In this document: piece by piece, positions 4,056-28,747 of the stretch
How positions within the stretch are numbered: position 1 is the stretch's first letter
Layout: each line of letters starts with the position of its first letter
Virus record (IMG/VR): IMGVR_UViG_3300049726_000068
Span: 1 to 47,877 of that record
From: a virus
DNA length: 47,877 nucleotides
Reading direction: 5' to 3' (one strand)
Position numbers and translations under genes: made by a program
Notes under the pieces: generated by a model
Database searches by the model: none
What the model saw: the letters and a program-made list of their open reading frames with translations, nothing else
Told to the model about the DNA's origin: nothing

Positions 4056-4241
4056 TTACTTTTTCTTTTTGTAAGTCCTTTTTACTTTTTCCTGAATAGG
4101 TTGTGTTTCTGCTGTTTCATCCACTTCACCAATGACCTCGTATTTAGGTTGCTTAATTTCTTTTGCAACACCAACCCGGACCATTGTTTCAGCTAATTTT
4201 CCAGTAAATACTTTACCTGTACGAATAGATACGCTTTCCAT
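4056..4241 (-). CDS. Small head or neck module protein (61 aa)
   Basis: The ATG at 4241 gives MESVSIRTGKVFTGKLAETMVRVG and a 61-residue protein ending in the basic tail VKRTYKKKK. A longer frame exists upstream, but it would need a TTG start and would overlap the preceding gene, so the ATG is preferred. It is flanked by the connector-like protein and by a small secreted protein. The family is not recognised. The Lys-rich tail could bind nucleic acid, which is only a guess. Confidence 0.5.
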   Translation of the reverse strand: MESVSIRTGKVFTGKLAETMVRVGVAKEIKQPKYEVIGEVDETAETQPIQEKVKRTYKKKK

Positions 4242-4245
4242 TATC

Positions 4246-4503: not shown

Positions 4504-4521
4504 TGTCTATTTTATTAAATA

Positions 4522-5841: not shown

Positions 5842-5843
5842 GA

Positions 5844-18572: not shown

Positions 18573-18695
18573 ATGAAAACAATTAAAAACGACTATTGTA
18601 TTAGACAATTTGTAAGCAGCGATACATTAAGACCTGCAATGATGAATAACGCAGAAAACCCCCAATTAACTATACCACGGGTTATAGCCAGTTAA
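18573..18695 (+). CDS. Small frame running into the first half-site (40 aa)
   Basis: The ATG at 18573 opens 40 codons (MKTIKNDYCIRQFVSSDTLR) whose last residues, ITVPRV-like (TIPRVIAS), are encoded by the L'-R' half-site at the left edge of the array. The stop lies just past the R' box. It is either a truncated cassette gene or chance. No family is visible. In 18513-18707 nothing else is seen besides the half-site. Confidence 0.3.
   Translation: MKTIKNDYCIRQFVSSDTLRPAMMNNAENPQLTIPRVIAS
18659..18692 (+). other. Left boundary half-site of the cassette array
   Basis: The sequence CCCCCAATTAACTATACCAC followed by the core GGGTTATAGCCAG looks like the L'-R' half of an attC site (compare CCCAACTGTTTTATACC plus GTT in attC11). 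R' is GTTATAGCC at 18681-18689. I cannot find a matching R''-L'' half upstream, so this could be the entry (attI-like) site or an attC that lost its left half. The first cassette would begin at 18682. Confidence 0.5.
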
Positions 18696-18707
18696 TTATT
18701 TTTCATT

Positions 18708-19133
18708 ATGAATTTAAGATTTGAAATTACAATGCCAAACAACAATGCTTGGAATGGTGTTGACACAGGAAATAAAGGTGGACATTTTGCATTTAGAAAT
18801 GTTGACAAAGCAACCGCCGATAAGTTAGATGGTAAAAATTTTTACTATAATTTTGGTGATGGATGGGGTGCAAATGTTTCAATAACTAAAAACAGAAAAT
18901 GCCCGACAAGTGGATTTCGAGGTTACGAATGGATGATTGAAGAAATATTGAAATATGGTGAAATAAAAAATGTGTCAGAACGCAGATTTAACAATAAGCT
19001 GCAAGATGCTTTTAAGGTTTTTATTAAAGGCTTTATTGCTGAAAATGGATATATTAAAACTGATTCATCTTTTCAATTTGAAAAACTACATTCAATTTTC
19101 AATGCTGAAATGTACGCATCGAAGCCGTCTTAA
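18708..19133 (+). CDS. Cassette 1 protein (141 aa)
   Basis: The only gene of cassette 1. It begins MNLRFEITMPNNNAWNGVDTG and has Gly/Phe/Asn-rich beta segments (GKNFYYNFGDGWGANVSITK) followed by a helical C-terminal half ending YASKPS. Not recognised. The last codons (SKPS) and stop lie in a 33-base stretch identical to the end of cassette 10. The start lies 27 bases after the R' box of the left half-site. Confidence 0.6.
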   Translation: MNLRFEITMPNNNAWNGVDTGNKGGHFAFRNVDKATADKLDGKNFYYNFGDGWGANVSITKNRKCPTSGFRGYEWMIEEILKYGEIKNVSERRFNNKLQDAFKVFIKGFIAENGYIKTDSSFQFEKLHSIFNAEMYASKPS

Positions 19134-19150
19134 TATGGCTTATAACGGTC
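19118..19150 (+). repeat. 33-base direct repeat shared by the ends of cassettes 1 and 10 (copy 1)
   Basis: The 33 bases here are identical to 24448-24480. They cover the last codons (…SKPS and stop), the R'' box and the first bases of the spacer of attC1 and attC10. The identity ends within the spacer, where the two sites diverge. Confidence 0.85.
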
Positions 19151-19234
19151 GGCAATATGAAACGGTTGCCTTATAGTTCGTTTCAAAATATGATGCAGTT
19201 TTCTGGCAACTGTTTTATATTGCTTGTTATAGCC
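19137..19234 (+). other. attC1-like site (short loop)
   Basis: R'' GGCTTATAAC (19137-19146), L'' 19152-19170, loop, L' 19205-19223, R' GTTATAGCC (19226-19234). The L arms GCAATATGAAACGGTTGCC and GGCAACTGTTTTATATTGC pair over 19 bases with two non-Watson-Crick positions. Spacers are 5 and 2 bases. Confidence 0.85.
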
Positions 19235-19251
19235 AGTTAATTATTGATAAA

Positions 19252-19554
19252 ATGGAAGCAAAAGAAATTATAAAGTTTTTAGGTGACTTAAACGACTTAG
19301 ATTTTAGATATTTAAGAATACAAATATCAATGGCTAATGATGCAAGAACTTTAGTAAAAGACTTTAATTTAACTAAAGAACAATTTTGCGAATTAATACA
19401 AATTTCACCCAAAGAATACAATAAGTATATGACAGGTGGATTTAATTATGATATACGTAAAATGGCTTTAATTCAGGCTGCATTCTGCAAGTTACAAATG
19501 GAACGCACAAAAGAAGAAGCTGAAAAGAAGTTTACGGATATAGTCGGCGCTTAA
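19252..19554 (+). CDS. Cassette 2 protein, small HTH-like (100 aa)
   Basis: The single gene of cassette 2 begins MEAKEIIKFLGDLNDLDFRY. The middle (DFNLTKEQFCELIQISPKEYNKYM) has the spacing of a Cro/XRE-type helix-turn-helix, in which the second helix is ISPKEYNKYMTG. The rest is helical. It could be a DNA-binding regulator or antitoxin. Confidence in the fold is moderate and no partner gene is present in this cassette. Confidence 0.6.
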   Translation: MEAKEIIKFLGDLNDLDFRYLRIQISMANDARTLVKDFNLTKEQFCELIQISPKEYNKYMTGGFNYDIRKMALIQAAFCKLQMERTKEEAEKKFTDIVGA

Positions 19555-19556
19555 TT

Positions 19557-19617
19557 GGCTATAACGTTGGCAATAAGTGCCGTTTTTTATATGGCATTTA
19601 TTGCGTGTTATGGGTTG
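19557..19617 (+). other. attC2-like site (61 bases, very short loop)
   Basis: R'' GGCTATAAC (19557-19565), L'' GCAATAAGTGCC (19570-19581), L' GGCATTTATTGC (19593-19604), R' GTTATGGGTTG (19607-19617). The R'' box pairs with the R' of attC1 (start of the same cassette) better than with its own R' across the junction. Confidence 0.85.
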
Positions 19618-19738
19618 TTTATGTTTTATAACATATAAATAATCTGAAAATAATTCAGTATTTGTATTGAATATCCGAAATTAATACCGATATTTACAAA
19701 GTCAAAAGCAATGAAGCTGAGATATAATTAATAAATAC

Positions 19739-20152
19739 ATGAAAACAAAAGATGAAGTTTTCAATATTCTAATAGAAAAAAAACTATTGGATGATTGCTA
19801 CAAGCCACAATTAAGTTGGCTGAAAATAATTGATGAGGCTACACAACTCAATCTTATAGGTGGATTAGAATCTTACAAAAGCGGATTGGGAGGGTATGAA
19901 AATTACGACATATTTTATGTTTGTAATTCTAATTTCTCTGAAATAGTGCAAATTCCATATTCTGAAAGTTGTAGTACAGGATTCGCTCACTCTGTCCCTT
20001 ACGAAAAAGAGATAACTAATGAAGACATATCTTTTTTTGTTAAGAAAATTGATTTTCAAATATCTAATGTTTTACACATTTCAAGAAATGAAAATTGTAA
20101 TTCTCGTGCATTTTGGGAATTAAAACTATACACAAATCCAATATGCAACTAA
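19739..20152 (+). CDS. Cassette 3 protein A (137 aa)
   Basis: First of two overlapping genes in cassette 3, beginning MKTKDEVFNILIEKKLLDDC. It holds a Tyr-rich region (GLGGYENYDIFYVCNSNFSE) and ends with several Cys (NCNSRAFWELKLYTNPICN). No family is recognised. A 121-base AT-rich leader lies between attC2 and this start. It may be partner to the HTH-like gene that overlaps its end by 10 bases. Confidence 0.55.
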   Translation: MKTKDEVFNILIEKKLLDDCYKPQLSWLKIIDEATQLNLIGGLESYKSGLGGYENYDIFYVCNSNFSEIVQIPYSESCSTGFAHSVPYEKEITNEDISFFVKKIDFQISNVLHISRNENCNSRAFWELKLYTNPICN

Positions 20153-20340
20153 TTGAAACCCGAATAAAGCAGCTTTTCAAAACGAAGGCTGCTTTTTGTG
20201 ATGCTCAAAACATATCATACAAGGATTTTGCAAGTAAACTAAGAACGTTAAAATCAAAGATTGCTTGGTTAAATACCTTTTTAAAACCACTCAATCTTAA
20301 AATCGAGATTGTAGATGATGAAGTGGGGGGGGTTAAATAA
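20143..20340 (+). CDS. Cassette 3 protein B, small HTH-like (65 aa)
   Basis: The ATG at 20143 (MQLIETRIKQLFKTKAAFCD) overlaps the 137-aa gene by 10 bases. FKTKAAFCDAQNISYKDFASKLRTL resembles a short helix-turn-helix, and the C-terminal KPLNLKIEIVDDEVGG is a strand. The pair may be a toxin-antitoxin or regulator cassette; this is inferred only from gene size and coupling. Confidence 0.5.
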   Translation: MQLIETRIKQLFKTKAAFCDAQNISYKDFASKLRTLKSKIAWLNTFLKPLNLKIEIVDDEVGGVK

Positions 20341-20478
20341 CCCATAACGGCACGGCTATGCGCATGTTTGGCGATTACGAGAACGAATTTATCAAATTAT
20401 ACTGAATTATGAACGAAGCTACACACTTGAATAACAGACTAAACGCCAAATTGCGTATGAGCCGATGTTATGTGTACG
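20339..20478 (+). other. attC3-like site (140 bases)
   Basis: R'' AACCCATAAC (20339-20348), L'' 20353-20373, a loop of about 70 bases, L' 20444-20464, R' GTTATGTGTACG (20467-20478). CGGCTATGCGC in L'' pairs with GCGTATGAGCCG in L' with one unpaired G, as the extrahelical base of real attC sites. tRNA-Tyr starts 8 bases after the site. Confidence 0.85.
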
Positions 20479-20485
20479 TACCTTT

Positions 20486-20574
20486 TGGTGGGGTAGATAG
20501 GATTCGAACCTATAAGTTTAGCCAGTGGCAACAGATTTACAGTCTGCCCCCTTCACCAATTTGGATACTACCCC
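20486..20574 (-). tRNA. tRNA-Tyr (anticodon GTA)
   Basis: Acceptor GGGGTAG pairs with CTACCCC, followed by the discriminator A and an encoded CCA. The anticodon loop CTGTAAA is closed by a paired stem. The T arm ATAGG-TTCGAAT-CCTAT is perfect. The long variable arm fits bacterial tRNA-Tyr. It is in the cassette 4 cluster on the strand opposite to the array, and is the only one with encoded CCA. Confidence 0.93.
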
Positions 20575-20580
20575 TTATTG

Positions 20581-20663
20581 CGGAAAGTAGAGTATTCGAA
20601 ACCCAGACAGTTACGTCCAACATCCTTAGCAGGGAGTTACCGAGCCTTTCGGTTTTGCTTTCC
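20581..20663 (-). tRNA. tRNA-Ser (anticodon GCT), somewhat degenerate
   Basis: Acceptor GGAAAGC pairs with ACTTTCC except for the seventh pair. The loop CTGCTAA gives anticodon GCT, and the variable arm is long, as in serine tRNAs. Two of five pairs in the anticodon stem fail, and the usual G53-C61 pair of the T arm is T-A. No CCA is encoded. It may still function, with a lower score than its neighbours. Confidence 0.72.
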
Positions 20664-20667
20664 ATTG

Positions 20668-20750
20668 CGGAAGGTAAAAGAATCGAACTCTCAACTTTTA
20701 CATCGGCACAGTTTTCAAGACTGCTTACCCACCATTGGGTGCTACCTTCC
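20668..20750 (-). tRNA. tRNA-Ser (anticodon TGA)
   Basis: Acceptor GGAAGGT pairs perfectly with ACCTTCC. The anticodon loop CTTGAAA (anticodon TGA) is closed by GCAGT/ACTGT. The variable arm is long, and the T loop is TTCGATT. No CCA is encoded, which is usual for hosts that add CCA enzymatically. The 3' end is only 5 bases from the 5' end of the other serine tRNA. Confidence 0.9.
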
Positions 20751-20755
20751 TTTTG

Positions 20756-20828
20756 TACTCCAAGTCAGATTCGAACTGACACTTTACATGGCTTAAACCT
20801 GATGCCTCTGCCGTTGGGCTACTGGAGT
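20756..20828 (-). tRNA. tRNA with anticodon TAA (Leu by anticodon, short variable arm)
   Basis: Acceptor ACTCCAG pairs with TTGGAGT (one G-T). The D arm GCCC-AACGGCAGA-GGC and the T arm GTCAG-TTCGAAT-CTGAC are clear. By standard numbering positions 34-36 are TAA, which would read UUA (Leu). The anticodon stem pairs at only three of five positions, and the variable arm has only 5 bases, unlike bacterial tRNA-Leu. The amino acid identity is therefore uncertain. Confidence 0.8.
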
Positions 20829-20831
20829 GTG

Positions 20832-20905
20832 TGCTCTTTTTCGGATTCGAACCGAAACTTATTAGTTCCTAAGACTAACGCCTCTACCAGTTGGGCTAAA
20901 AGAGC
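20832..20905 (-). tRNA. tRNA with anticodon TAG (Leu by anticodon, short variable arm)
   Basis: Acceptor GCTCTTT pairs with AAAGAGC; the anticodon stem TTAGT/ACTAA and the T stem TTCGG/CCGAA are perfect. Loop CTTAGGA gives anticodon TAG, reading CUA (Leu). As with its neighbour the variable arm is short (class I), which is odd for tRNA-Leu. It is not a stop-codon suppressor, since it would not read UAG. Confidence 0.88.
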
Positions 20906-20910
20906 AAATA

Positions 20911-20944
20911 AAAAAGCCCCCAGAAATGAATCAGGAGGCTTTTT
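20911..20944. terminator. Bidirectional terminator-like hairpin in cassette 4
   Basis: AAAAAGCC (20911-20918) pairs with GGCTTTTT (20937-20944), extended by CC/GG across one mismatch. A T run is present on both strands. It could stop plus-strand transcription that enters from cassette 3. For the tRNA transcript it lies in the leader, between promoter and first tRNA, so an attenuator role is possible. Confidence 0.7.
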
Positions 20945-21050
20945 GAAGCTTTTAAAGCTGTATCTTAAAAGATATATGCTCTCCTGTCAGTTATTTTTGA
21001 ATAACTTAGCGACAATGAGAGACTATATAAATTTTGTGTTTTCATGTCGG

Positions 21051-21081
21051 CAAATATACGACTTAATTTTAAACACACAAA
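21051..21081 (-). promoter_or_regulatory. Bacteroidota-type promoter for the tRNA cluster
   Basis: The minus strand has TTTG (21078-21081), exactly 19 bases, then TATATTTG (21051-21058), a full match to TTTG-N19-TAnnTTTG. It points towards the five tRNA genes, with a leader of about 140 bases. It gives the tRNA cassette its own expression, independent of the array direction. Confidence 0.8.
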
Positions 21082-21120
21082 TTATTAACTCACAAAATTT
21101 GCTACGAAGCGGTTTTGGCA

Positions 21121-21260
21121 TTACACATAACGAATTGCGGTATGCTACGTGCCGGATTAAATAACGAAATACTATTAAATTATGACAGAACTTAATAAAC
21201 AGCAGGAACTTTGGCAAACCACAACACCCGGCATGGAGTATGACCGCGTGTTAGGCGTAG
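21121..21260 (+). other. attC4-like site (140 bases)
   Basis: R'' TTACACATAAC (21121-21131), L'' GCGGTATGCTACGTGCCGG, L' CCGGCATGGAGTATGACCGC, R' GTTAGGCGTAG (21250-21260). One extrahelical G in L' faces the L'' strand. R'' does not match its own R' but pairs with the R' of attC3 (GTTATGTGTACG), at the start of the tRNA cassette. Confidence 0.88.
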
Positions 21261-21334
21261 ATTTTTATTCGTTCATCAAAATATTTACCAATTATATAAA
21301 GATTTATAGAAATAGTATTGCAGAATCAAAATAA
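21182..21334 (+). CDS. Small frame starting in the attC4 loop (50 aa)
   Basis: The ATG at 21182 lies in the loop of attC4 and the frame runs through L' and R' (residues DRVLGV) into cassette 5, ending at 21334. It begins MTELNKQQELWQTTTPGMEY and continues with an aromatic, basic tail (IFTNYIKIYRN). The same layout is seen for the 141-aa gene at attC5. It is a possible chimeric small protein or a translational lead-in to the following gene. Confidence 0.35.
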   Translation: MTELNKQQELWQTTTPGMEYDRVLGVDFYSFIKIFTNYIKIYRNSIAESK

Positions 21335-21371
21335 AATATTAACTTTACTTCATAATTCAAAAACAACGATT

Positions 21372-21593
21372 ATGAAAACGAACAAACCTAAAAGAAACGA
21401 GTGGATAGAGTTTAATATTTATCCTGAACAAGAAACTGTAAAAGCCATGGCAAAAGCGAAGATTAATGATAAAAACGAACTTGAAGTAAAATTAGCTTTT
21501 ACAGCTCAACGAGGTTTTTATTATTCATTTTTAGAAGATGCAAGAATTGAAGCTCAGAGGTTATTTTGTAAATACTACAAAATAGCAGCATGA
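21372..21593 (+). CDS. Cassette 5 protein A (73 aa)
   Basis: The ATG at 21372 (MKTNKPKRNEWIEFNIYPEQ) is preferred to an upstream TTG. A basic start is followed by a beta hairpin and a helix (YYSFLEDARIEAQRLFCKYYK). Its stop overlaps the next start (ATGA). With the ribbon-helix-helix-like partner it resembles a two-gene toxin-antitoxin cassette, but neither part is a family that I know. Confidence 0.55.
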   Translation: MKTNKPKRNEWIEFNIYPEQETVKAMAKAKINDKNELEVKLAFTAQRGFYYSFLEDARIEAQRLFCKYYKIAA

Positions 21594-21751
21594 GAGGCGG
21601 AAAAAGAGAAGGTGCTGGACGTAAAAACTCCGGCACTAAAAAAACTACAAGCTTTCGATTAACATTAGAATCATATTTGAAAGCAAAAGAAATACATGGG
21701 CGAAACCTTAACAAATTAGTTGATGACTTTATAAAGTCGCTGGTTTCTTAA
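21590..21751 (+). CDS. Cassette 5 protein B, ribbon-helix-helix-like (53 aa)
   Basis: The product begins MRGGKREGAGRKNSGTKKTT, a basic arm common in small phage DNA-binding proteins, and continues SFRLTLESYLKAKEIHGRNL with a last helix, as in ribbon-helix-helix domains. It is coupled to the 73-aa gene by an ATGA overlap and ends 3 bases before R'' of attC5. A repressor or antitoxin role is likely but not proved. Confidence 0.6.
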   Translation: MRGGKREGAGRKNSGTKKTTSFRLTLESYLKAKEIHGRNLNKLVDDFIKSLVS

Positions 21752-21753
21752 AT

Positions 21754-21884
21754 TTACGCCTAACGGTGGCGGTATCAGCAGTATTTGCATCACAAAACTT
21801 AAATTGAAAAACAAATGACAAAATTAGCAAAAAACAATCCACAAGGCACGGCAAATATTGCTGATGACCGTGTGTTAGGCAACG
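21754..21884 (+). other. attC5-like site (131 bases), the clearest copy
   Basis: R'' TTACGCCTAAC (21754-21764) and R' GTTAGGCAACG (21874-21884) give a perfect 7-bp RYYYAAC/GTTRRRY pair. Spacers GGTGG and the three bases before GTT do not pair. L'' CGGTATCAGCAGTATTTGC pairs with L' GCAAATATTGCTGATGACCG with one mismatch and one extrahelical base. This is the textbook attC layout. The ATG of the next gene (21815) lies in the loop. Confidence 0.92.
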
Positions 21885-22240
21885 TTTTAATTGCCGATTT
21901 TTTAGGATGGGAAAATTATGGTGATGGTAAAACATACAAGTTTCCAAATTTATATCCGATTTACAATATAAACGATGTGGAAAATTCAGGTTGGACAAGC
22001 GACCAAATAGAAAATGCAGAATTTGATAAACGATGGGATTGGATTATGCCTGTCGTATTAAAAATAAATACAACAAGATATTTCTTTTTTATGGATAGTT
22101 ATGTTGTTAGAATTTGCAAGTTCGGCGATGGTTCTGGTGAAATAAGTAGAAAAGCATATTTTAAAAAAGAAGATGCTTTAAGTAGTGTTTATTCTGTAAT
22201 TGTAAAATGGTTGCAGTATCGCTCCTTAAATGTTGCCTAA
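21815..22240 (+). CDS. Cassette 6 protein, starts in the attC5 loop (141 aa)
   Basis: Residues 1-20 (MTKLAKNNPQGTANIADDRV) are encoded by the loop and right arm of attC5; residues LGNVLIADFLGWE onwards come from cassette 6. The body matches a type common in Bacteroidota phages: 'n.liadFlg', then FDKRWDWIMPVVLKI. No ATG is available in frame inside the cassette before this core, so translation seems to need the upstream site. The TAA stop lies within R'' of attC6. Function unknown. Confidence 0.65.
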   Translation: MTKLAKNNPQGTANIADDRVLGNVLIADFLGWENYGDGKTYKFPNLYPIYNINDVENSGWTSDQIENAEFDKRWDWIMPVVLKINTTRYFFFMDSYVVRICKFGDGSGEISRKAYFKKEDALSSVYSVIVKWLQYRSLNVA

Positions 22241-22367
22241 CGATCTAGGCTATACGTCAGGGCTGGATTACGGGCGTAAAATTGTCAAATTACTAAAAAA
22301 TTAATGCGAAATATGAAAGATAAAGAACCGATACTGCCAGACTTGCGGATAGCCGAAGTTATTGCCC
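22232..22367 (+). other. attC6-like site (136 bases)
   Basis: R'' GTTGCCTAAC (22232-22241) contains the stop codon of cassette 6. L'' GGCTATACGTCAGGGCTGG pairs imperfectly with L' CTGCCAGACTTGCGGATAGCC. R' is GTTATTGCCC (22358-22367). R'' matches the R' of attC5, not its own R'. The L arms resemble those of attC10 and of the solitary minus-strand site. Confidence 0.85.
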
Positions 22368-23047
22368 AGCCTTTCGGTACGTTCATAAATTCCGATTGTC
22401 TGTCAGTTATGAAAGGCTTTTCAGATAAGCAATTTGATCTGGCTATTGTCGATGTGCCGTATGGAATTGGCGAAGATGGAAGCCGAAATAAAACACGGAC
22501 TGGAGGTTTAGCAAAGCCTAAAGATTATAAACCTTATGCCGGAAATGATTTAACCGCTCCTGAAGCTGAATATTGGTACGAATTAAGGCGAATAAGCAAG
22601 AATCAAATTGTTTGGGGCGCAAACCACTTTATAAGCAAATTACCGATTGATAGTAGCTGTTGGATAGTTTGGGATAAAGAGAATGGTGAAACTGATTTCG
22701 CTGATTGTGAATTAGCTTGGACATCGTTTGATACTGCCGTTAGAAAATTTCGGTGGAAATGGAGCGGAATGTTGCAGCAGAATATGAAAAACAAGCAACA
22801 ACACATACACCCAAACGAAAAACCGATTGAGCTTTATGAATGGCTTTTAAAAACCTACGCAAAACCGAATGATCAAATTATTGATACTCATTTAGGTTCT
22901 GCCAGTATTGGAATTGCCGTTGATAAGGTCAATAAATTAGATCACATGAACCTTACTCTCACCGGAATCGAATTAGATTCATACTATTTTAAGAAAGCTA
23001 TGTCAAGATTAAATGAGTATTCCAGTCAGACTGCGATGTCGTTTTAA
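22304..23047 (+). CDS. DNA methyltransferase of the N4/N6 type, cassette 7 (247 aa)
   Basis: The protein has the amino-methyltransferase motifs: DLAIVDVPYGIG near residue 50 (DPPY-like catalytic motif, as DVPY), NQIVWGANHF, HPNEKPIELYEWLLKTYA, and DTHLGSASIGIA (SAM-binding motif; normally FxGxG). It would methylate adenine or cytosine amino groups in DNA. The order (catalytic motif first) is beta-like. The ATG lies in the attC6 loop; residues from about VIAQPF on come from the cassette. No cognate nuclease is nearby, so protection from host restriction is likely. Confidence 0.85.
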   Translation: MRNMKDKEPILPDLRIAEVIAQPFGTFINSDCLSVMKGFSDKQFDLAIVDVPYGIGEDGSRNKTRTGGLAKPKDYKPYAGNDLTAPEAEYWYELRRISKNQIVWGANHFISKLPIDSSCWIVWDKENGETDFADCELAWTSFDTAVRKFRWKWSGMLQQNMKNKQQHIHPNEKPIELYEWLLKTYAKPNDQIIDTHLGSASIGIAVDKVNKLDHMNLTLTGIELDSYYFKKAMSRLNEYSSQTAMSF

Positions 23048-23049
23048 GG

Positions 23050-23187
23050 TTGGCAATAACGTTGAGTATTGGCGATGTTGCCGTTTTAACAGCACTTAAT
23101 TATCAAATTACTAAACACTTTATAAAATGGAAAACACTTCAAATACCCACGAAAACGGCAATAACGCTAATACTGAGTTATGTGGCG
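23050..23187 (+). other. attC7-like site (138 bases)
   Basis: R'' TTGGCAATAAC (23050-23060), L'' GAGTATTGGCGATGTTGCCG, L' CGGCAATAACGCTAATACT, R' GTTATGTGGCG (23177-23187). R'' pairs with the R' of attC6 (GTTATTGCCC). The loop contains the ATG at 23127 that serves the next gene. Confidence 0.85.
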
Positions 23188-23423
23188 TTATTGATAAAGA
23201 ATTAGCGAACTGGATTTATTACGAAGATGGCCATATTTACTATTGTTTTGACTGCGTTCAAAAAAGGGTTGATGAAATTAATGCAAATAAAGAATTTGCG
23301 GAGGATATAGATTATGAGGGCGGTGATGACTGTGGTTATTATCAGGATTATGCAGACGACGAAGAAGCTGTTGAATGCTGCAAATGCGGTAAACCGCTAT
23401 TCTCAACTGGCGTGGATGCTTAA
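23127..23423 (+). CDS. Cassette 8 protein, Cys-rich, starts in the attC7 loop (98 aa)
   Basis: The first 17 residues (MENTSNTHENGNNANTE) are encoded by attC7, and the rest (LCGVIDKELANWIYYEDGH) by cassette 8. Cysteine pairs YYCFDC and ECCKCGKP form a likely zinc ribbon around an acidic middle. No in-frame start lies inside the cassette before WIYY. It ends directly before R'' of attC8. The cellular role is unknown; zinc-ribbon proteins of this size often bind protein or nucleic acid. Confidence 0.6.
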   Translation: MENTSNTHENGNNANTELCGVIDKELANWIYYEDGHIYYCFDCVQKRVDEINANKEFAEDIDYEGGDDCGYYQDYADDEEAVECCKCGKPLFSTGVDA

Positions 23424-23559
23424 TGCCACATAACGTTGATGCTATGAAAAGTAGCGGATTTAAAGGCACTGATTTATCAAACGAGATGAAGTAAATTAAT
23501 AGTAATAACTTGGCAATTAACACTAAACCGCTATTTTTTATAGCATGTGTTAGCTGTCG
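23424..23559 (+). other. attC8-like site (136 bases)
   Basis: R'' TGCCACATAAC (23424-23434), L'' GATGCTATGAAAAGTAGCGG, L' CCGCTATTTTTTATAGCAT, R' GTTAGCTGTCG (23549-23559). R'' and R' across this junction do not match (CACATAAC against GTTAGCTG), while R'' matches the R' of attC7. The L arms pair well. Confidence 0.85.
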
Positions 23560-23573
23560 TAATATTTTAAATT

Positions 23574-23897
23574 ATGATAAAGGTTTATATTGCAAGCCCC
23601 TACACTTTGGGAGATGTAGCAGTAAATGTAAAAATGCAAATTGATACAGTTGATGTACTAATGAATAAAGGTTTTGCACCATTTGCACCACTTTATTCGC
23701 ATTTTCAACACATGGCGCACCCAAGATCATATCAAGATTGGGTAAAAATTGATTTAGAATGGGTTAAAGTCTGTGATTGCATACTAAGATTGGAAGGTGA
23801 ATCTAAGGGTGCTGATGGAGAGGTTGAATTTGCAAAACAACTTAACATACCAGTATTTTATTCAATCGAAGAACTGTGTCTGCATTATGGCAGCTAA
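23574..23897 (+). CDS. Nucleoside 2-deoxyribosyltransferase-like protein (DUF4406-like), cassette 9 (107 aa)
   Basis: MIKVYIASPYTLGDVAVNVK opens with the YIASPYT signature of the nucleoside deoxyribosyltransferase superfamily. FAPLYSHFQHMAHPRSYQDW follows, and then CDCILRLEGESKGADGEVEF, where the SxGAxxEVE-like motif carries the usual catalytic Glu. The size fits the short DUF4406 relatives. It may act in nucleotide salvage or modification. The TAA stop is inside R'' of attC9. Confidence 0.8.
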   Translation: MIKVYIASPYTLGDVAVNVKMQIDTVDVLMNKGFAPFAPLYSHFQHMAHPRSYQDWVKIDLEWVKVCDCILRLEGESKGADGEVEFAKQLNIPVFYSIEELCLHYGS

Positions 23898-24025
23898 CGT
23901 CCGTAGGTATGGCAAGTAAAGGATTAGAAACCAGTAAACTATCAAGCTATGACGAATAGTATAGAAAACACTACCGACCGCAAACCACAGCAGCCTTTAT
24001 TTGCCATACCTGTTGTTATAAGCCG
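23889..24025 (+). other. attC9-like site (137 bases)
   Basis: R'' GGCAGCTAAC (23889-23898), L'' AGGTATGGCAAGTAAAGG, L' CCTTTATTTGCCATACCT, R' GTTATAAGCCG (24015-24025). L'' and L' pair over 18 positions with one mismatch. R'' matches R' of attC8. A short frame starts in the loop (23949-24047, 32 codons) and runs past R'. Confidence 0.88.
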
Positions 24026-24080
24026 TATTTGTTTGATTACCAACTGAAAATAAAATAATTTAAAAATAAACAGTAAATAG

Positions 24081-24111
24081 TTTGTAAATACAAAATAAAT
24101 AACTATATTTG
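24081..24111 (+). promoter_or_regulatory. Bacteroidota-type promoter inside cassette 10
   Basis: TTTG (24081-24084), 19 bases, TATATTTG (24104-24111): an exact fit to the consensus. The ATG of the 62-aa gene lies 28 bases downstream. This cassette therefore carries its own promoter, as toxin-antitoxin cassettes in integrons often do. Confidence 0.85.
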
Positions 24112-24138
24112 TTGAGTAATAATTAACAAATAGAAATT

Positions 24139-24327
24139 ATGACAGCAAATTCGGTAGTAAGTAGAGAACAGTATAACACAAGAATTGAAACTGGTGATTT
24201 TACTGAGTTAGAAAACCTAACAAAAACACAAGTAATAAAAAGCGAACAATACACTTATTACAGGTGTGAATACATTTCGCCAAATTTAAGAGTAAGTCAA
24301 ATAATAGTAGCTGTATATGAAAACTAA
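24139..24327 (+). CDS. Cassette 10 protein A (62 aa)
   Basis: A small protein beginning MTANSVVSREQYNTRIETGD with a C-terminal beta hairpin (YRCEYISPNLRVSQIIVAVY). It is driven by the promoter at 24081-24111 and overlaps the ribbon-helix-helix-like gene by 11 bases. Not recognised. The layout, small gene plus small DNA-binding gene with own promoter, is that of a toxin-antitoxin or autoregulated pair. Confidence 0.6.
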   Translation: MTANSVVSREQYNTRIETGDFTELENLTKTQVIKSEQYTYYRCEYISPNLRVSQIIVAVYEN

Positions 24328-24463
24328 AAAAGTAACAATAAGCCTGACTGCCGAACAACAGCAACAGGCAAAAACTATAAGCAAAGAGATTTTAGGAAAT
24401 GAAAATATATCTGGTTTATTCGCTTTTTGGATTAACCAGTACCTTAAATCGAAGCCGTCTTAA
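24317..24463 (+). CDS. Cassette 10 protein B, ribbon-helix-helix-like (48 aa)
   Basis: The ATG at 24317 overlaps the end of the 62-aa gene. MKTKKVTISLTAEQQQQAKT (basic strand VTISLT followed by a helix), then ISGLFAFWINQYL, fits a ribbon-helix-helix DNA-binding domain of the CopG/Arc type. The last residues, SKPS, and the stop lie in the 33-base repeat shared with cassette 1. Likely the repressor or antitoxin of the pair. Confidence 0.65.
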   Translation: MKTKKVTISLTAEQQQQAKTISKEILGNENISGLFAFWINQYLKSKPS

Positions 24464-24480
24464 TATGGCTTATAACGGTC
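24448..24480 (+). repeat. 33-base direct repeat shared by the ends of cassettes 1 and 10 (copy 2)
   Basis: Identical to 19118-19150. It spans the last codons of the 48-aa gene, the R'' box and the start of the attC10 spacer. The two unrelated genes thus end with the same residues, SKPS. Confidence 0.85.
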
Positions 24481-24607
24481 TGCAAGTACACGTCAGGGCT
24501 GGATTACGGGCTGAAACCATTATTGTCAGCGCAAAAGACCGGGCGAATAGATGCAGACCGCATCGCACCACTGCCAGACTTGCGGGTACTTTTGCTGTTA
24601 TGGGTTG
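24467..24607 (+). other. attC10-like site (141 bases)
   Basis: R'' GGCTTATAAC (24467-24476), L'' GCAAGTACACGTCAGGGCTGG, L' CTGCCAGACTTGCGGGTACTTTTGC (with a bulge), R' GTTATGGGTTG (24597-24607). The R'' matches R' of attC9. The L arms share CAGGGCTGG / CTGCCAGACTTG with attC6 and with the solitary site at 12734-12870. Confidence 0.85.
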
Positions 24608-24673
24608 TTTTATTTAGAATCAATATAAACTAAGTAAATACTTAAAATATTTTCATTTATTTTCATTTACCTA

Positions 24674-24704
24674 TTGACTGGTATTAAGTAAATGCTTATC
24701 TTTG
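24674..24704 (+). promoter_or_regulatory. Bacteroidota-type promoter inside cassette 11
   Basis: TTGA (24674-24677), 19 bases, TATCTTTG (24697-24704). The -7 box is perfect, and the -33 box differs from TTTG in two positions. The ATG of the 97-aa gene lies 31 bases downstream at 24735. Confidence 0.7.
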
Positions 24705-24734
24705 GTCTATACAAAAACAATAAAACAACACATC

Positions 24735-25028
24735 ATGGCAACTTTAGAAATCGGACAAAAAGGAAAATTAGGAAATGAAGTTTTAACAGTAGTTTCTTTT
24801 AATGAAATGACTTTCAAATGCGACAACGGCAAATCATACATGATCGCAACTGCAAGATGGATGACTGAAGGAATTGAAACAGCAGCCCCAAAAGCAAAGA
24901 AAGCAAGAAAATACAATGCAGCACCTGCCAACTACGAACAAGAAATCAATGAAAAATCAGACGTTCGCAAATTTGAAGAAATGCAAGAAAAATCAAGAAT
25001 GAATCAAAGAGGTTCTTGGATGAGATAA
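24735..25028 (+). CDS. Cassette 11 protein A (97 aa)
   Basis: The ATG at 24735 is preferred to a TTG that overlaps the promoter. The N-terminal half is a small beta domain (LEIGQKGKLGNEVLTVVSFN), like an SH3-type barrel, and the C-terminal half is a Lys/Arg-rich, probably disordered tail (PKAKKARKYNAAPANYEQ) ending with a charged helix. It could bind nucleic acid. Not recognised as a family. Confidence 0.6.
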   Translation: MATLEIGQKGKLGNEVLTVVSFNEMTFKCDNGKSYMIATARWMTEGIETAAPKAKKARKYNAAPANYEQEINEKSDVRKFEEMQEKSRMNQRGSWMR

Positions 25029-25049
25029 TAACCACTTAAAAACTAAAAA

Positions 25050-25295
25050 ATGAAAACTTACTTATTGATCAAAACAAAAGCAGGTGAACGCAAAGGAACT
25101 GAAATTTCAAATTTCATTGGTGAAAATGAGAATGATCCGAAAATGCTGGACGAAGCAAAAAGTTATTTAACTGACTGGCTGAATAGTTATACAAGCATTT
25201 CAGATGAAGAAATAGCCGATTTATTTTCTGCCTTCGCTGGCAGTTTTTCTTATGACGTTTGGAACTTTGAATTAATTGAAGAAAATGACAATTAA
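25050..25295 (+). CDS. Cassette 11 protein B (81 aa)
   Basis: An acidic protein beginning MKTYLLIKTKAGERKGTEIS, with a helix-rich second half (KSYLTDWLNSYTSISDEEIADLF). The middle gene of three in this cassette; its end overlaps the small HTH-like gene by 11 bases. Function unknown. Confidence 0.6.
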   Translation: MKTYLLIKTKAGERKGTEISNFIGENENDPKMLDEAKSYLTDWLNSYTSISDEEIADLFSAFAGSFSYDVWNFELIEENDN

Positions 25296-25476
25296 CGAAC
25301 TAAAAAAAGAACTTGGCTTAACCAATACGGAAATAGCCGAGTTCTTTGATTTGTCGCCAATTGCGTATGCAAATAGCAGCGCAAAAGTCCGTTATGAAGC
25401 TGCACTCTGTCGATTCTTTGAGGTAGTCAAAGAAAAACTCAATGTCGATGAAAAGAGCGACTTAAATAACCCATAA
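25285..25476 (+). CDS. Cassette 11 protein C, small HTH-like (63 aa)
   Basis: The ATG at 25285 gives MTINELKKELGLTNTEIAEF, a good helix-turn-helix opening: TNTEIAEFFDLSPIAYANSS. The rest is a dimerisation-type helix (AALCRFFEVVKEKL). It overlaps the 81-aa gene, and its TAA stop is inside R'' of attC11. It may autoregulate the cassette. Confidence 0.6.
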   Translation: MTINELKKELGLTNTEIAEFFDLSPIAYANSSAKVRYEAALCRFFEVVKEKLNVDEKSDLNNP

Positions 25477-25607
25477 CGGCTGCGGGTATGAAATCGGTTG
25501 GGATTGCGAAGTACAACCCTATCAAGTTGCAAGACACTTGCTATGGGCTACTAAGTTGGATTAACCACTAAAGCCCAACTGTTTTATACCACGTGTTAGT
25601 TGTCTGG
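25468..25607 (+). other. attC11-like site (140 bases)
   Basis: R'' AACCCATAAC (25468-25477), L'' GGGTATGAAATCGGTTGGG, L' CCCAACTGTTTTATACC, R' GTTAGTTGTCTGG (25595-25607). R'' pairs with R' of attC10 and not with its own R'. Its L arms are nearly identical to those of attC12, which suggests a recent common origin. Confidence 0.88.
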
Positions 25608-25667
25608 TGCGGCAATTACCACAGAACTAAAATAGAAGCACTGAATTAGTAATTTATTTTTTTAGCG

Positions 25668-26447
25668 ATGGCATTAATTTTATTTGGACACGAAGAATCA
25701 CAAGCTTGTACAATAGCATTTAGGGAACTTGGGCATGAAGCTTATTCATGTGATTTAAAACCATGTTCCGGCGGGCATCCTGAATGGCATTTACAAATGG
25801 ATGTTTTTAAAGCTGCCTGGTTGAAAAAATGGGACGCTGCTGTATTTTTCCCTGATTGCACTTATATGACATCTTCTGGATTATTCCGCAATATAAACCA
25901 CCCGATAAGGGCTGAAAAAACCGAAAAAGCACTTAGGCATGTTCGGGATTTAATGAACCTGGATATTGAGCATATAGGAATCGAAAACCCTGTTGGTTGC
26001 ATAAGTACCCGTATTTTCTGGTATGTTGGTGGTGAAAATGGGGAACCAAGATGGGAAGTTTACCCGATAGTTTTAGAACATGGTGCCAGGAAAGCTGACC
26101 AAACTATACAGCCATACCAGTTTAACGAAGATGCAAGCAAAAGAACTTGTTTATGGCTTAAAAATTTGCCTAAACTTAAACCTACTGGATTTTACCCACC
26201 GCGAATTGTTGACGGGAAACCAAGATGGAGCAATCAAACTGATAGTGGACAAAATAAACTGCCACCTTCAGAAAATAGAGCGGAATTAAGAAGTAAAACA
26301 TACTTGGGGATTGCAAAGGCTATGGCTGAACAATGGACTCCTATTCTTAACGGTTTTGAAAAAACTGCAGCGGGCGGGCAAAAAATAAATTACGGTCAAG
26401 CTCAGATGAACTTATTTTCGGAGCATGAACGTAGCACTTGCAACTAA
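25668..26447 (+). CDS. Cytosine-C5 DNA methyltransferase-like protein, cassette 12 (259 aa)
   Basis: The N-terminal ILFGHEESQACTIAFRELGH is the SAM-binding motif region. FFPDCTYMTSSG at residues 61-71 corresponds to the PPC catalytic loop (Cys64 kept, second Pro replaced by Asp), and GIENPVG at 104-110 corresponds to the ENV motif. QPYQFNEDASKRTCLWLKNL and a C-terminal SKTYLGIAKAMAEQW match the divergent phage Dcm-like family. It probably modifies phage DNA. No nuclease partner is present. The stop lies inside R'' of attC12. Confidence 0.8.
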   Translation: MALILFGHEESQACTIAFRELGHEAYSCDLKPCSGGHPEWHLQMDVFKAAWLKKWDAAVFFPDCTYMTSSGLFRNINHPIRAEKTEKALRHVRDLMNLDIEHIGIENPVGCISTRIFWYVGGENGEPRWEVYPIVLEHGARKADQTIQPYQFNEDASKRTCLWLKNLPKLKPTGFYPPRIVDGKPRWSNQTDSGQNKLPPSENRAELRSKTYLGIAKAMAEQWTPILNGFEKTAAGGQKINYGQAQMNLFSEHERSTCN

Positions 26448-26576
26448 CGGTTGGCGGTATGAAATCGGTTGGGCTTCGATGCTTGTACCTGTCAAGTTAC
26501 AACGGACTATGAAACGGGCTGAAACGCTCGAATAACCACTGACACCCAACTGTTTTATACCGTGTGTTACCGCCCG
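26438..26576 (+). other. attC12-like site (139 bases)
   Basis: R'' TTGCAACTAAC (26438-26448), L'' CGGTATGAAATCGGTTGGG, L' CCCAACTGTTTTATACCG, R' GTTACCGCCCG (26566-26576). R'' matches R' of attC11 (GTTAGTTG), while its own R' matches R'' of attC13. Confidence 0.88.
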
Positions 26577-26634
26577 TTTTTTTTGTTCTCACTAAAAATA
26601 AATAGAAATATTTTGAAAATAATTACAAAAATAC

Positions 26635-26665
26635 TTGCAAAATAGAAAAATACGTTGTATCTTTA
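26635..26665 (+). promoter_or_regulatory. Probable promoter inside cassette 13
   Basis: TTGC (26635-26638), 19 bases, TATCTTTA (26658-26665). Both boxes differ slightly from the consensus but the spacing is exact. The ATG of the 139-aa gene lies 31 bases downstream at 26696, the same distance as in cassette 11. Confidence 0.6.
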
Positions 26666-26695
26666 CTTCATCAAATAACAATAAAACATACAACA

Positions 26696-27115
26696 ATGGA
26701 ATACACAGCAAAACAAATCGAAAACGCAAAGAGAAACTACAACGCAATGATGAAAATGCAAGCTCTTTCTGATTATGATGTTGAAAATATTGGTAGAAAT
26801 ACAGCAGAACAAAGGATGGATTACCACAACAGAATAGTAAGCGAAATTCTTGCTGGCAATAAAGAATTAGAAAAAGAATGGAAATTATTTTTTTTGAAAG
26901 AAGAAGTAAAAGCAGACCAAAAAGCAGAAGCAAGCAAAGCAAAATTAAACGCAAACAAAGAAGCATCAGCCGATATTTTAGCACCTATTAAATCAATTAA
27001 AAAATTAGGTGAATTTGGAAGCTGGTTAAATACTTCTGGAAACAAATTTCGCAAAGAACATTTTTCAAAAAAATATACTCAAGAATCAGTTAACGCATTT
27101 TTATCAACTTTATAA
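26696..27115 (+). CDS. Cassette 13 protein A (139 aa)
   Basis: A helical, charged protein beginning MEYTAKQIENAKRNYNAMMK. The middle (LEKEWKLFFLKEEVKADQKA) is coiled-coil-like, and the end (GSWLNTSGNKFRKEHFSKKY) is basic. First gene of a three-gene cassette behind its own promoter. Not recognised. Confidence 0.6.
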   Translation: MEYTAKQIENAKRNYNAMMKMQALSDYDVENIGRNTAEQRMDYHNRIVSEILAGNKELEKEWKLFFLKEEVKADQKAEASKAKLNANKEASADILAPIKSIKKLGEFGSWLNTSGNKFRKEHFSKKYTQESVNAFLSTL

Positions 27116-27125
27116 AACTTACAAA

Positions 27126-27353
27126 ATGAGAACAAAAGACAAAAAAGGACTTTATTTCCAAGGCGAATTTAAAGCAAGTAATTACAGCGATGCGGTTAAA
27201 GAATTGTACCAATTAAATAAAATTCCAAGCGGATTTTGTGTGAACGAAGATTACGATGCCAATGGTTATAGCGTAGTAGATGGCAATGGAATACAACGCA
27301 TTTACGAACTTTCCCCAAAAGAATTTTATAACGCATTTATGAATTTGGAATAA
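27126..27353 (+). CDS. Cassette 13 protein B (75 aa)
   Basis: A small protein beginning MRTKDKKGLYFQGEFKASNY with a mixed alpha/beta pattern (SGFCVNEDYDANGYSVVDGN). It is coupled to the next gene by a TAATG overlap. Function unknown. Confidence 0.6.
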   Translation: MRTKDKKGLYFQGEFKASNYSDAVKELYQLNKIPSGFCVNEDYDANGYSVVDGNGIQRIYELSPKEFYNAFMNLE

Positions 27354-27526
27354 TGAACCGCCAAAACGTAATAGTAGTAATTGCTCCGACTTTAGAAGTT
27401 TGGGGCAATTTTAAAAAGTTGTGTGAGGCTAAAGGATTTGATGTTTTGCCGTATCATTCGCTAAAATCGAAGCCTTTTCCGATTATTCACAACGACTGGA
27501 TTATCCACAAAGTGCCGTTTCTTTAA
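27353..27526 (+). CDS. Cassette 13 protein C (57 aa)
   Basis: The frame starts in the TAATG overlap with the 75-aa gene and ends 1 base before R'' of attC13. The product begins MNRQNVIVVIAPTLEVWGNF and ends IHNDWIIHKVPFL, with a strand-helix-strand pattern. The position, exactly filling the space to the attC site, supports it as a real gene. Not recognised. Confidence 0.6.
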   Translation: MNRQNVIVVIAPTLEVWGNFKKLCEAKGFDVLPYHSLKSKPFPIIHNDWIIHKVPFL

Positions 27527-27527
27527 A

Positions 27528-27625
27528 TGGGCGGTAACGTTTGGTGTATGTGCCGTGCCAAACGCAGAACTTTCAAATCACGGCTAAAACTATCTGGCAT
27601 GGCATATACACCGTGTTAGGCAACG
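27528..27625 (+). other. attC13-like site (98 bases, short loop)
   Basis: R'' TGGGCGGTAAC (27528-27538), L'' GGTGTATGTGCCGTGCC, L' GGCATGGCATATACACC, R' GTTAGGCAACG (27615-27625). The L arms pair with two mismatches. R'' is complementary to R' of attC12 (GTTACCGCCCG). Confidence 0.9.
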
Positions 27626-27634
27626 TTTTTAATT

Positions 27635-27925
27635 ATGAATTATTGGTTAACCCCCACTGGACAGGTATTTCAAGGCGAAGTAGGTGGCGGTTCTTGGCAC
27701 ACAAGACTATGTAATTCATATCTTGATAAACATGAGCAGTTACAGGAACGTTTTTGGAATTGGTACGATAAAGGAATGGGATATACTCATGATTTTTTTG
27801 AAATCGAATTGAGATGGGTGAGATATTGTGATTGGGGTAAAATAGGATGGGTAGTATCTCCCGATAGAAGATTGACTAAGAAGCAAAAAGAAAAGATGTT
27901 TGAACTTACTGGTGATGTTTTTTAA
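27635..27925 (+). CDS. Cassette 14 protein (96 aa)
   Basis: The last cassette gene begins MNYWLTPTGQVFQGEVGGGS and is rich in Trp and Tyr (ERFWNWYDKGMGYTHDFFEI). LRWVRYCDWGKIGWVVSPDR is a recognisable conserved-looking core, but the family has no function that I know. It ends 2 bases before the terminal R'' box. Confidence 0.6.
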   Translation: MNYWLTPTGQVFQGEVGGGSWHTRLCNSYLDKHEQLQERFWNWYDKGMGYTHDFFEIELRWVRYCDWGKIGWVVSPDRRLTKKQKEKMFELTGDVF

Positions 27926-27927
27926 AT

Positions 27928-27937
27928 GTTGCCTAAC
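27928..27937 (+). other. Right boundary half-site of the array (lone R'' box)
   Basis: GTTGCCTAAC here is the exact complement of the R' box of attC13 (GTTAGGCAAC), so cassette 14 is intact. No L'' arm, loop or R' follows; the sequence passes directly into non-array DNA and the next gene at 27970. The site has lost its right part or the array ends by illegitimate joining. Confidence 0.75.
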
Positions 27938-27969
27938 TAGTATATATCCGTAGTTCACAATTTTGAACC

Positions 27970-28206
27970 ATGACACAACTTACAGAATATGAAAAACTTG
28001 CATTGCACAAACTTGGTGAAAGTATTCACCATGGCAGGTGGAGTAATGAGGGCATGGTTCAATTAATTGAACTGGTTGGAGATTATTTAAATCCACTGAC
28101 TATTTCGGAATATGCTGAAAAATACAAAATGAGCTATAATGGCGTGAAAAAATGTCGTAAAATAACTAAGTTATTGAAAATAAAATTAATAATTGATAAT
28201 GACTAA
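27970..28206 (+). CDS. Small HTH-like early protein (78 aa)
   Basis: MTQLTEYEKLALHKLGESIH begins a helical protein whose C-terminal half (LTISEYAEKYKMSYNGVKKCR) fits a helix-turn-helix ('a.kyg.S...V.k'). It lies just right of the array and overlaps the NinG-like gene by 8 bases. A transcription regulator is plausible. Confidence 0.6.
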   Translation: MTQLTEYEKLALHKLGESIHHGRWSNEGMVQLIELVGDYLNPLTISEYAEKYKMSYNGVKKCRKITKLLKIKLIIDND

Positions 28207-28747
28207 TCAAGAAACATATCGTCATTGTCATTGTGGAAAGAAGATTTCACCTCCACGAAATTCAACTATTTGGGCTAAGGAATGTCCGGCTTGTCAGTTT
28301 GCAGCTGTTTACGATAAAAAGAAAGCGGGCAAATCAAAGGATTCATTCTTTACTGGGAAACCAACGGTTGATAAACCGAAAAAAGGCGGCATAGACAAAC
28401 AATTAGATGATGCCTGGTCTTTGCTTGTAAAATTAAGAGCAGGGATGAAATGCGAATATTGTAAAAGTATGAAATCATTAAATAGTCATCATTTAAATTC
28501 AAGAGCTAAAAAAACAGTTAGATGGATAGCGGAAAATGGGATTTGCTTATGCGTAAATCATCATATTGGTAATGAATTTAGCACACACAAAACGAGTATC
28601 CCATTTACGATCTGGCTGATAAAATATAAAGGTCAGAAATTTATGGACGATCTTCAATGGAAATCAAACCAGACCGGTAAATACACTGAATTTGAAAAGA
28701 AAATACTATTAAACGAGTTATTAAGTCAAATAAAATCACTAACTTAG
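28199..28747 (+). CDS. NinG/Rap-like recombination endonuclease (HNH type, 182 aa)
   Basis: The ATG at 28199 (MTNQETYRHCHCGKKISPPR) is preferred to an upstream TTG. Two Cys pairs (CHCGK, CPAC) near the N-terminus, then DDAWSLLVKLRAGMKCEYC and LNSHHLNSRAKKTVRWIAEN, then GICLCVNHHIGNE, follow the pattern of lambda NinG (Rap), a structure-specific nuclease that resolves recombination joints. HNH-like His residues are present in SHH and NHH. Its presence near a NinB-like gene is typical. Confidence 0.75.
   Translation: MTNQETYRHCHCGKKISPPRNSTIWAKECPACQFAAVYDKKKAGKSKDSFFTGKPTVDKPKKGGIDKQLDDAWSLLVKLRAGMKCEYCKSMKSLNSHHLNSRAKKTVRWIAENGICLCVNHHIGNEFSTHKTSIPFTIWLIKYKGQKFMDDLQWKSNQTGKYTEFEKKILLNELLSQIKSLT

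Follow-up and report, generated by a model that had tools for sequence, protein, structure and literature searches.

An integrase-less integron cassette array in a likely Bacteroidota phage, probably served in trans by an I2-less tyrosine recombinase

The phage genome analyzed here carries a row of 14 exchangeable genes, linked by recombination sites of the integron type, and encodes no integrase of its own. The window, defined as the whole 47,877-nt stretch of IMGVR_UViG_3300049726_000068, contains 13 attC-like sites on a single strand, spanning 19140–27621. Outside them lie two unpaired boxes, GTT at 18681 on the left and AAC, ending at 27937, on the right. The original prediction of 13 such sites in one orientation, with exactly these limits, was borne out. 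On comparative sequence grounds, we consider it probable that the array is an integron cassette platform lacking a recombinase gene, in which strand exchange would be performed in trans by FAM, our name for a family of XerA/IntI-like tyrosine recombinases without the IntI-specific I2 insert. The array occupies the early region, with an exonuclease and SSB on one side and NinG and primase on the other, as had been proposed for an integrase-less array between the recombination and replication blocks; no IntI with the I2 insert was found beside it in the window. As a cluster of at least two attC sites without an integrase, it qualifies as a CALIN. The phage is likely lytic, gene inventories of phages being partial. 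In the following features, E-values refer to covariance model R1, trained on 20 sites, none of them from the window.

17178..17777, +, left flank, RecE-like exonuclease (flank matches phrog_149 1e-28, phrog_4932 2e-15)
17780-18109, left flank, SSB after the RecE-like exonuclease
18645..18689, +, left array end, attC 3' half (L' and GTT box) with the AAC-box half missing
18708..19133, +, cassette gene, 141 aa, no Pfam or PHROG match
19140..19232, +, attC-like s1 (93 bases), E 3.7e-9, DNA fold z -3.5
19252..19554, +, cassette gene, 100 aa, uncharacterized (Pfam/PHROG searched)
19559..19613, +, attC-like s2 (55 bases), E 3.4e-5, fold z -2.8
19739..20152, +, cassette gene, 137 aa, uncharacterized; the cassette also includes 20143-20340
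20342..20473, +, attC-like s3, E 1.6e-8, fold z -3.6
20486..20905, -, tRNA cassette, four genes (Tyr, Ser, Leu, Leu; ARAGORN, Rfam)
21125..21256, +, attC-like s4, E 1e-8
21758..21880, +, attC-like s5, E 2.5e-8, fold z -2.4
21815..22240, +, cassette gene, 141 aa, uncharacterized (Pfam/PHROG searched)
22235..22364, +, attC-like s6, E 1e-5
22304..23047, +, cassette gene, DNA methyltransferase (N6_N4_Mtase; PF01555 5e-10, phrog_23224 2e-35)
23054..23183, +, attC-like s7, E 4e-14; hairpin part of the next cassette, left limit of the unit shared with element G051
23061..23434, +, one whole cassette (s7 hairpin and gene 23127-23423), 89% in G051
23428..23555, +, attC-like s8, E 1.9e-14
23574..23897, +, cassette gene, nucleoside 2-deoxyribosyltransferase-like (DUF7768/DUF4406; phrog_355 2.5e-22, PF24963 2e-11)
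23892..24021, +, attC-like s9, E 3.3e-11
24470..24603, +, attC-like s10, not among the R1 matches
25471..25601, +, attC-like s11, E 1.1e-15
25668..26447, +, cassette gene, DNA methyltransferase (phrog_757 1e-49)
26442..26572, +, attC-like s12, E 4.1e-25, of a subtype frequent in phage and prophage DNA
26696..27353, +, cassette genes 26696-27115 and 27126-27353, 82-83% identity in phage contig G006
27532..27621, +, attC-like s13, E 2.1e-6
27635..27925, +, last cassette gene, 96 aa, uncharacterized (Pfam/PHROG searched), adjoining the attI-like end
27928..27970, -, attI-like acceptor end; last cassette end ...GTTGCCTAAC, then TAGTATATATCCGTAGTTCACAATTTTGAAC
28193..28747, +, right flank, NinG-like endonuclease (phrog_5034 9e-11)

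The sites display the anatomy of attC: paired R boxes (AAC and GTT), L arms with unpaired spacers, and an extrahelical base in one arm, with an extrahelical G at an unpaired position in 18 of the 20 sites of set A1. A strict scan for R boxes and L arms with G after AAC returned eight sites in the real window, all eight inside the array, versus a mean of 0.45 and a maximum of 1 per window in 20 dinucleotide shuffles. R1, whose source sites show covariation (64 cells changed on both sides compared with 26.7 in shuffles), matched 12 of the 13 sites (E 4.1e-25 to 3.4e-5), all on the plus strand, with one off-target match (E 0.06). With R1 as the covariance model, the attC layout withstood the check proposed for it. 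The sole array site that R1 failed to match, s10 (24470-24603), obeys the same-cassette box rule described below, with 10/10 matches on both sides. Bottom-strand folding, also proposed as a check, was successful in part: several sites formed the expected stem with unpaired spacers and single extrahelical bases, and four (s1, s2, s3 and s5) reached z-scores of -2.4 to -3.6, whereas the whole sequences of long-loop sites folded no better than shuffles, as expected with loops of 60–90 bases, so that whole-site folding is not decisive for them.

Within each window cassette, the 10 bases at the start complement the 10 at the end, with 133/140 matches overall, whereas 100,000 permutations reached 119 at best. 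The boxes match within a cassette rather than within a site. Adjacent pairs with at least 8/10 matches make up 35 of 42 in phages (5.1 in permutations) and 28 of 38 in chromosomes (4.2 in permutations). We read this complementarity as the mark of cassettes that were once circular. Homologous shuffling, in which hairpin repeats are recombined by the phage exonuclease, SSB and NinG without any site-specific recombinase, would fit the placement of arrays directly after exonuclease and SSB genes in the window and in phages G012 and G009. It is nevertheless highly improbable, given that the 10-base same-cassette identity requires circles closed at that point, that the rule holds in chromosomal arrays too, and that beyond three to four shared bases (AAC|G) at the ends of an exchanged unit the DNA is unrelated.

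The polarity originally assigned to the cassettes, which we at first accepted, proved to be the reverse of the functional one, because hairpins go with the DNA on the GTT side: stem identity is 0.82 with GTT-side DNA versus 0.64 (baseline 0.58), most of these pairs being contributed by a single genome with repeated cassettes. As judged from these comparisons, a cassette consists of a single attC hairpin together with the gene following on its GTT side. Independent agreement comes from the unit shared with G051.

That unit is a single window cassette found at 89% identity in G051, an otherwise unrelated 109-kb element. Both its ends fall exactly at AAC|G, and the identity is confined to AAC|G..TAAC|G between unrelated flanks, the pattern of cassettes that move as exact units between AAC|G points. 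Exchange of accessory genes had been predicted with host integrons; the one whole-cassette exchange seen is with another mobile element and none was seen with chromosomal arrays, whose gene polarity within cassettes is opposite (33:4 in phages, 1:26 in chromosomes, where the arrays are those of FAM). Because of this opposition, phages appear to have a cassette pool of their own rather than one common to phages and chromosomes.

Turnover is also evident in the sister phage G012, whose exonuclease, NinG and 33290 protein are 80%, 75% and 88% identical to those of the window. As anticipated for relatives with the same flanks, cassettes at the same locus are replaced wholesale by others, and similarity to the cassette of 19739..20152 is located elsewhere in G012. 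A fixed relic, in which an old array was acquired in a single copying event from a bacterial integron and has ceased to exchange, would account for a phage without a recombinase and for a left end that is a broken attC; the different cassettes of G012 and the single cassette shared with G051 make it the least probable reading. Site s12 is 80–90% identical to sites in G006, G010 and G011 and in prophage L266, and megablast of the array against annotated phages gave no match. A genome-wide search with an 18-base attC pattern yielded 38 matches, nearly all due to chance, with only L098 and L109 inside sites. L098 lies in a Mu-like prophage and was therefore rejected as evidence for chromosomal phage-type cassettes.

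Only one of the two array ends is a broken attC, namely the left, which over 48 bases has one mismatch to the complete attC of phage contig L040. The right end is instead an attI-like junction just before the gene at 27970; G012 shares this junction, with another cassette abutting it, and an initial reading of the end as a truncated attC was rejected.

Integrons are thought to require IntI, with its 20-residue I2 domain, for folded attC sites. The window's site family is present in 116 of 295 genomes of one Bacteroidota order, the one richest in sites, in which IntI occurs in only 5/295, and R1 matched none of 25 non-Bacteroidota genomes. Sites co-occur with FAM (Fisher p 6e-7) and not with IntI (p 0.30), and no R1 site lies on the IntI-bearing contigs of that order; 72 of 228 FAM-negative genomes, these being drafts scored at a strict cut-off, also carry sites. 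At all 19 recombinase loci with detected sites, every site lies 3' of the FAM gene on the opposite strand. An attI-like motif, TATAANN[GA]A|GTT[AG], follows FAM in 22 of 43 loci (expected, 0.06); the phage array end is similar to it but not identical, the window match being approximate. The sites near FAM genes belong to the window's family, as seen from R1 matches near 19 FAM genes and from Chryseobacterium plasmid NZ_CP041688.1, which carries a complete example.

FAM scores 167 bits against TIGR02249, below the cut-off of 265, and lacks the I2 insert. Like XerA/XerC/XerD (NF040815, TIGR02224/5), among which NF040815 gives its best score, it has the same catalytic residues and no I2; unlike them, it falls outside the Xer clade (100/99), carries IntI's tail SPxD and its QNQ motif, and is located at cassette arrays. 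Long branches meet in this tree, so an origin of IntI inside FAM is not settled by it.

CALINs in virulent phages, which the original prediction had thought perhaps undescribed, have already been published for TJE1, PH101 and Polaribacter phage P12002L, with IntI1-mediated recombination demonstrated in E. coli (Qi et al. 2023, PMC9892861). They likewise comprise attCs and cassettes, including methyltransferase cassettes, in lytic phages without an integrase; however, the figured examples are short, and that study describes no attI-like end, turnover in relatives, dedicated recombinase or polarity. P12002L gives a weak R1 match and probably has the same site family. Since IntI1 recombined one P12002L attC, IntI could also serve such sites, and the box, spacer, extrahelical G and crossover anatomy is that of attC. 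Even so, an ordinary phage CALIN, with classical attCs served by the IntI of host integrons, as first suggested and as Qi et al. 2023 propose, is unlikely. IntI is disfavored as the enzyme of these arrays, and the host probably relies on something other than an IntI integron, because IntI is so rare, its contigs are site-free, and the sites adjoin the I2-less recombinase instead, always on the same side.

The phage has no FAM gene and probably uses a FAM recombinase in trans. The enzyme could be one that sits at the head of chromosomal or plasmid arrays of this attC type in Bacteroidota, or could come from a co-resident mobile element such as G051, where a FAM-like recombinase lies roughly 1 kb from the array. 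Like IntI, the enzyme would act on attC as a folded single strand and on attI as a duplex, allowing the phage to gain and swap early genes, among them methyltransferases, tRNAs and small proteins without assigned function, probably as a counter to host defense. A close-match search of IMG/VR returned no relative of FAM. That no FAM gene was found in the window or in the other phages counts against the FAM model, as do the FAM-negative genomes bearing sites, the opposite polarity, the recombination of a P12002L attC by IntI1 and the approximate attI match.

For a broader proposal, the prospects are evenly balanced: an I2-less integron class in Bacteroidota, with phages bearing integrase-less attI-plus-cassette platforms, a pool of their own polarity and exchange between unrelated phages. 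Such a class, perhaps an outgroup of IntI integrons or an intermediate, bears, if real, on the emergence of attC and I2 and on the question of a viral source of integrons. The joint origin of attC and I2 has been termed a "chicken-and-egg paradox", with a viral origin speculated (Escudero et al. 2016, PMC4792948). The matter becomes testable with a Bacteroidota system that is common and combines attC and attI with a recombinase lacking I2. This would also explain the trade in individual early genes, for example methyltransferases or sets of tRNAs, between unrelated genomes of lytic Bacteroidota phages. Because IntegronFinder 2.0 reports almost no Bacteroidetes integrons (PMC9024848), counts to date may have missed a large reservoir of cassettes.

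IntI integrons (class 1, the Vibrio superintegron) share with the window and FAM arrays the attC and cassette anatomy, crossover at the GTT/AAC boxes and circular cassettes, and have an attI where these have an attI-like end or motif. FAM differs in lacking I2, in being transcribed towards its array, in an attI about 100 bases 3' of its gene, and in long attCs (~130 bases), IntI being very rare in the same bacteria. CTXphi and IMEX, which use host XerCD on folded single-stranded DNA, similarly depend on a tyrosine recombinase of the host to recombine a hairpin of phage DNA (Escudero et al. 2016, PMC4792948), but with one integration site, no cassette array and a stem without extrahelical bases.

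The original prediction, that this phage carries an integron-type cassette array, was confirmed as an observation. Its interpretation was correct in kind, although its outline had already been published (PMC9892861: clusters of attC sites in lytic phages, and IntI1 acting on them), and it was incomplete in that the window sites are of a Bacteroidota integron type whose putative enzyme is a recombinase lacking the IntI-specific I2 insert.

The window is a virus record from IMG/VR and is 47,877 bases long. Its left part contains terminase, portal, protease and major head protein genes, and its early region a RecE-like exonuclease, SSB, NinG and a primase/helicase. The array lies between SSB and NinG and comprises the predicted 13 complete attC-like sites (s1-s13, left to right) in a single direction and at the predicted coordinates. 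A covariance model, R1, was built from 20 sites, all from other contigs, leaving the test free of circularity. Its pairs covary (64 cells with both sides changed versus 26.7 in shuffles), pairing amounts to 81% and falls to 39% or less when the partner is slid by one column, and an extrahelical G is retained in 18 of 20 sites. The covariance search proposed in the original prediction, conducted with R1, recovered 12 of the 13 window sites at E-values of 4e-25 to 3e-5, with no other match below 0.06. Further features of the array:

19106-19150 and 24449-24480: about 31 identical bases, GAAGCCGTCTTAATATGGCTTATAACGGTC, shared by cassettes s0-s1 and s9-s10 and running through the AAC box inclusive; the genes of these cassettes are unrelated.
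20486-20905: one cassette of four tRNA genes (Tyr-GTA, Ser-TGA, Leu-TAA and Leu-TAG), on the opposite strand to the other cassette genes; no tRNA was found in any of 22 related-phage loci scanned.

In integrons, both ends of a cassette derive from one recombination box, and the ends are therefore alike despite lying in different sites. Comparison of the start and end 10 bases within the same window cassette yielded 133/140 matches (maximum of 119 in 100,000 permutations), versus 82/130 for the two boxes within the same site. The exception was the first cassette (7/10), which adjoins the broken left site. At least 8 of 10 bases matched in 35 of 42 pairs from other phage arrays (5.1 expected) and in 28 of 38 pairs from chromosomal arrays (4.2 expected). 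Judged from these sequences, the window cassettes were evidently once circles.

When the array DNA was searched against 291 genomes from a single order, one long match emerged, between window 23058-23435 and contig C48 of the unrelated element G051 (89% identity). It extends from the AACG of s7 to the TAACG of s8, with unrelated flanking DNA, and the common segment is one cassette, consisting of hairpin s7 and the gene after it. This contig is a mobile element, 109 kb long, that encodes polyvalent proteins and has a weak terminase match and its own array of eight sites. Phage record G012 is a sister of the window phage, with amino-acid identities of 80% for the exonuclease, 55% and 75% for the two genes that follow the array on the right and 88% for the 33290 protein. 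As the proposed comparison of relatives with the same flanks revealed, its array (3590-6687) occupies the equivalent location with different genes, and a homolog of cassette s2-s3 lies elsewhere in G012, adjoining a lone site at 55641. The genes of cassette s12-s13 also occur in another contig, G006, where they are 82-83% identical. The sequences show cassette units and their turnover. Sites were present in 14 of 22 phage records tested, a set picked by kinship or site pattern that gives no prevalence estimate. The G012 assembly breaks near the exonuclease, where each contig end (59478-60000 and 1-156) carries tandem repeats of 60 bases.

At the right end of the array, the window phage and G012 share ...TAAC followed by common sequence (TAGTATATATCCGTAGTTCACAATTTTGAACC and GATGTATATCATTAGTTCACAAAATTGAACC) and the same gene, while the cassettes abutting this junction differ, giving it the appearance of an acceptor site. 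Other phage arrays have similar ends, for example those of G002 (TAAC|TTGTTTATATATG) and prophage L266 (TAAC|TAGTTTATAACC). At the left end, the array has the 3' half of an attC.

The polarity originally assigned to the sites had to be reversed. Hairpin likeness was 0.82 for sites with common GTT-side DNA versus 0.64 for those with a common AAC side (baseline 0.58); it tracks the GTT side, and the hairpin therefore belongs to that side. Under the corrected polarity, 26 of 27 chromosomal cassette genes run in the usual sense, and 33 of 37 phage cassette genes in the opposite sense. Outside phages, the sites closest to s12 are in prophages (the Mu-like L265, and L266). The opposite phage polarity and these s12-like sites are taken here as a sign of a separate phage cassette pool. 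One Bacteroidetes MAG contig (L109:1151-2182), which may be prophage, carries a cassette in phage-type polarity, whose product resembles RNA ligase by eye.

To survey bacteria, 295 genomes were drawn evenly from the order of Salinivirgaceae genome G023. Of these, 116 had R1 sites with E-values no higher than 1e-8, and 5 had IntI above its cut-off; IntegronFinder 2.0 found Bacteroidetes integrons to be very rare (PMC9024848). No R1 site at this threshold was found in 25 non-Bacteroidota genomes. Genome G247, a single contig, has an array of about 55 kb, and next to one end of it lies a tyrosine recombinase of 283 aa, whose relatives (FAM) were present in 67/295 genomes of the order and 43/296 of the phylum. 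Against the G247 query, FAM proteins scored 200-634 bits, and the IntI and XerC/D proteins encoded in the same genomes at most 95. FAM retains the R, K, HxxR, H and Y residues, lacks the insert present in 4/4 IntI compared, and scores 167 bits against the IntI model, under the cut-off of 265. In the tree, Xer sequences and IntI sequences fall into two separate, supported clades, and FAM is closer to IntI than to Xer without a settled branching order. Most FAM recombinases are extended at the N terminus by about 80-280 aa (e.g., L217:2167-3264 and L263:11791-12834) relative to the G247 protein.

FAM and the arrays are co-located: 19 of 42 fetched loci had R1 sites, in all 19 located 3' of the gene on the opposite strand. 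Among the remaining 23, 18 had less than 2 kb of contig on the 3' side, as expected if repeats break assembly, and 5 had more contig and no site. The first-cassette start, located by the same-cassette rule, lies 70-165 bases past the stop codon in most loci and is preceded by the motif TATAANN[GA]A (22/43 loci versus 0.06 expected). A complete named example is the Chryseobacterium sp. SNU WT5 plasmid NZ_CP041688.1. The G051 element has a FAM relative about 1 kb from its array (36-44% identity to FAM, 24-26% to IntI); a gene between its last attC and this recombinase (L290:16471-17367, minus strand) weakly matches the CBASS effector Cap12.

FAM is probably the enzyme of these arrays. No FAM gene was found in the window or other phage loci, and the phage appears to carry an attI-like site and cassettes without an enzyme gene. 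FAM would act in trans within the host of the phage, and the phage may benefit from the array. No description of FAM arrays was found in the open-access literature searched, and their novelty is provisional. Separately, in genome G237 (C1:109073-302871), some ten near-identical pairs of genes for tyrosine recombinases (about 310 and 288 aa) are scattered across 190 kb, outside the attC arrays.
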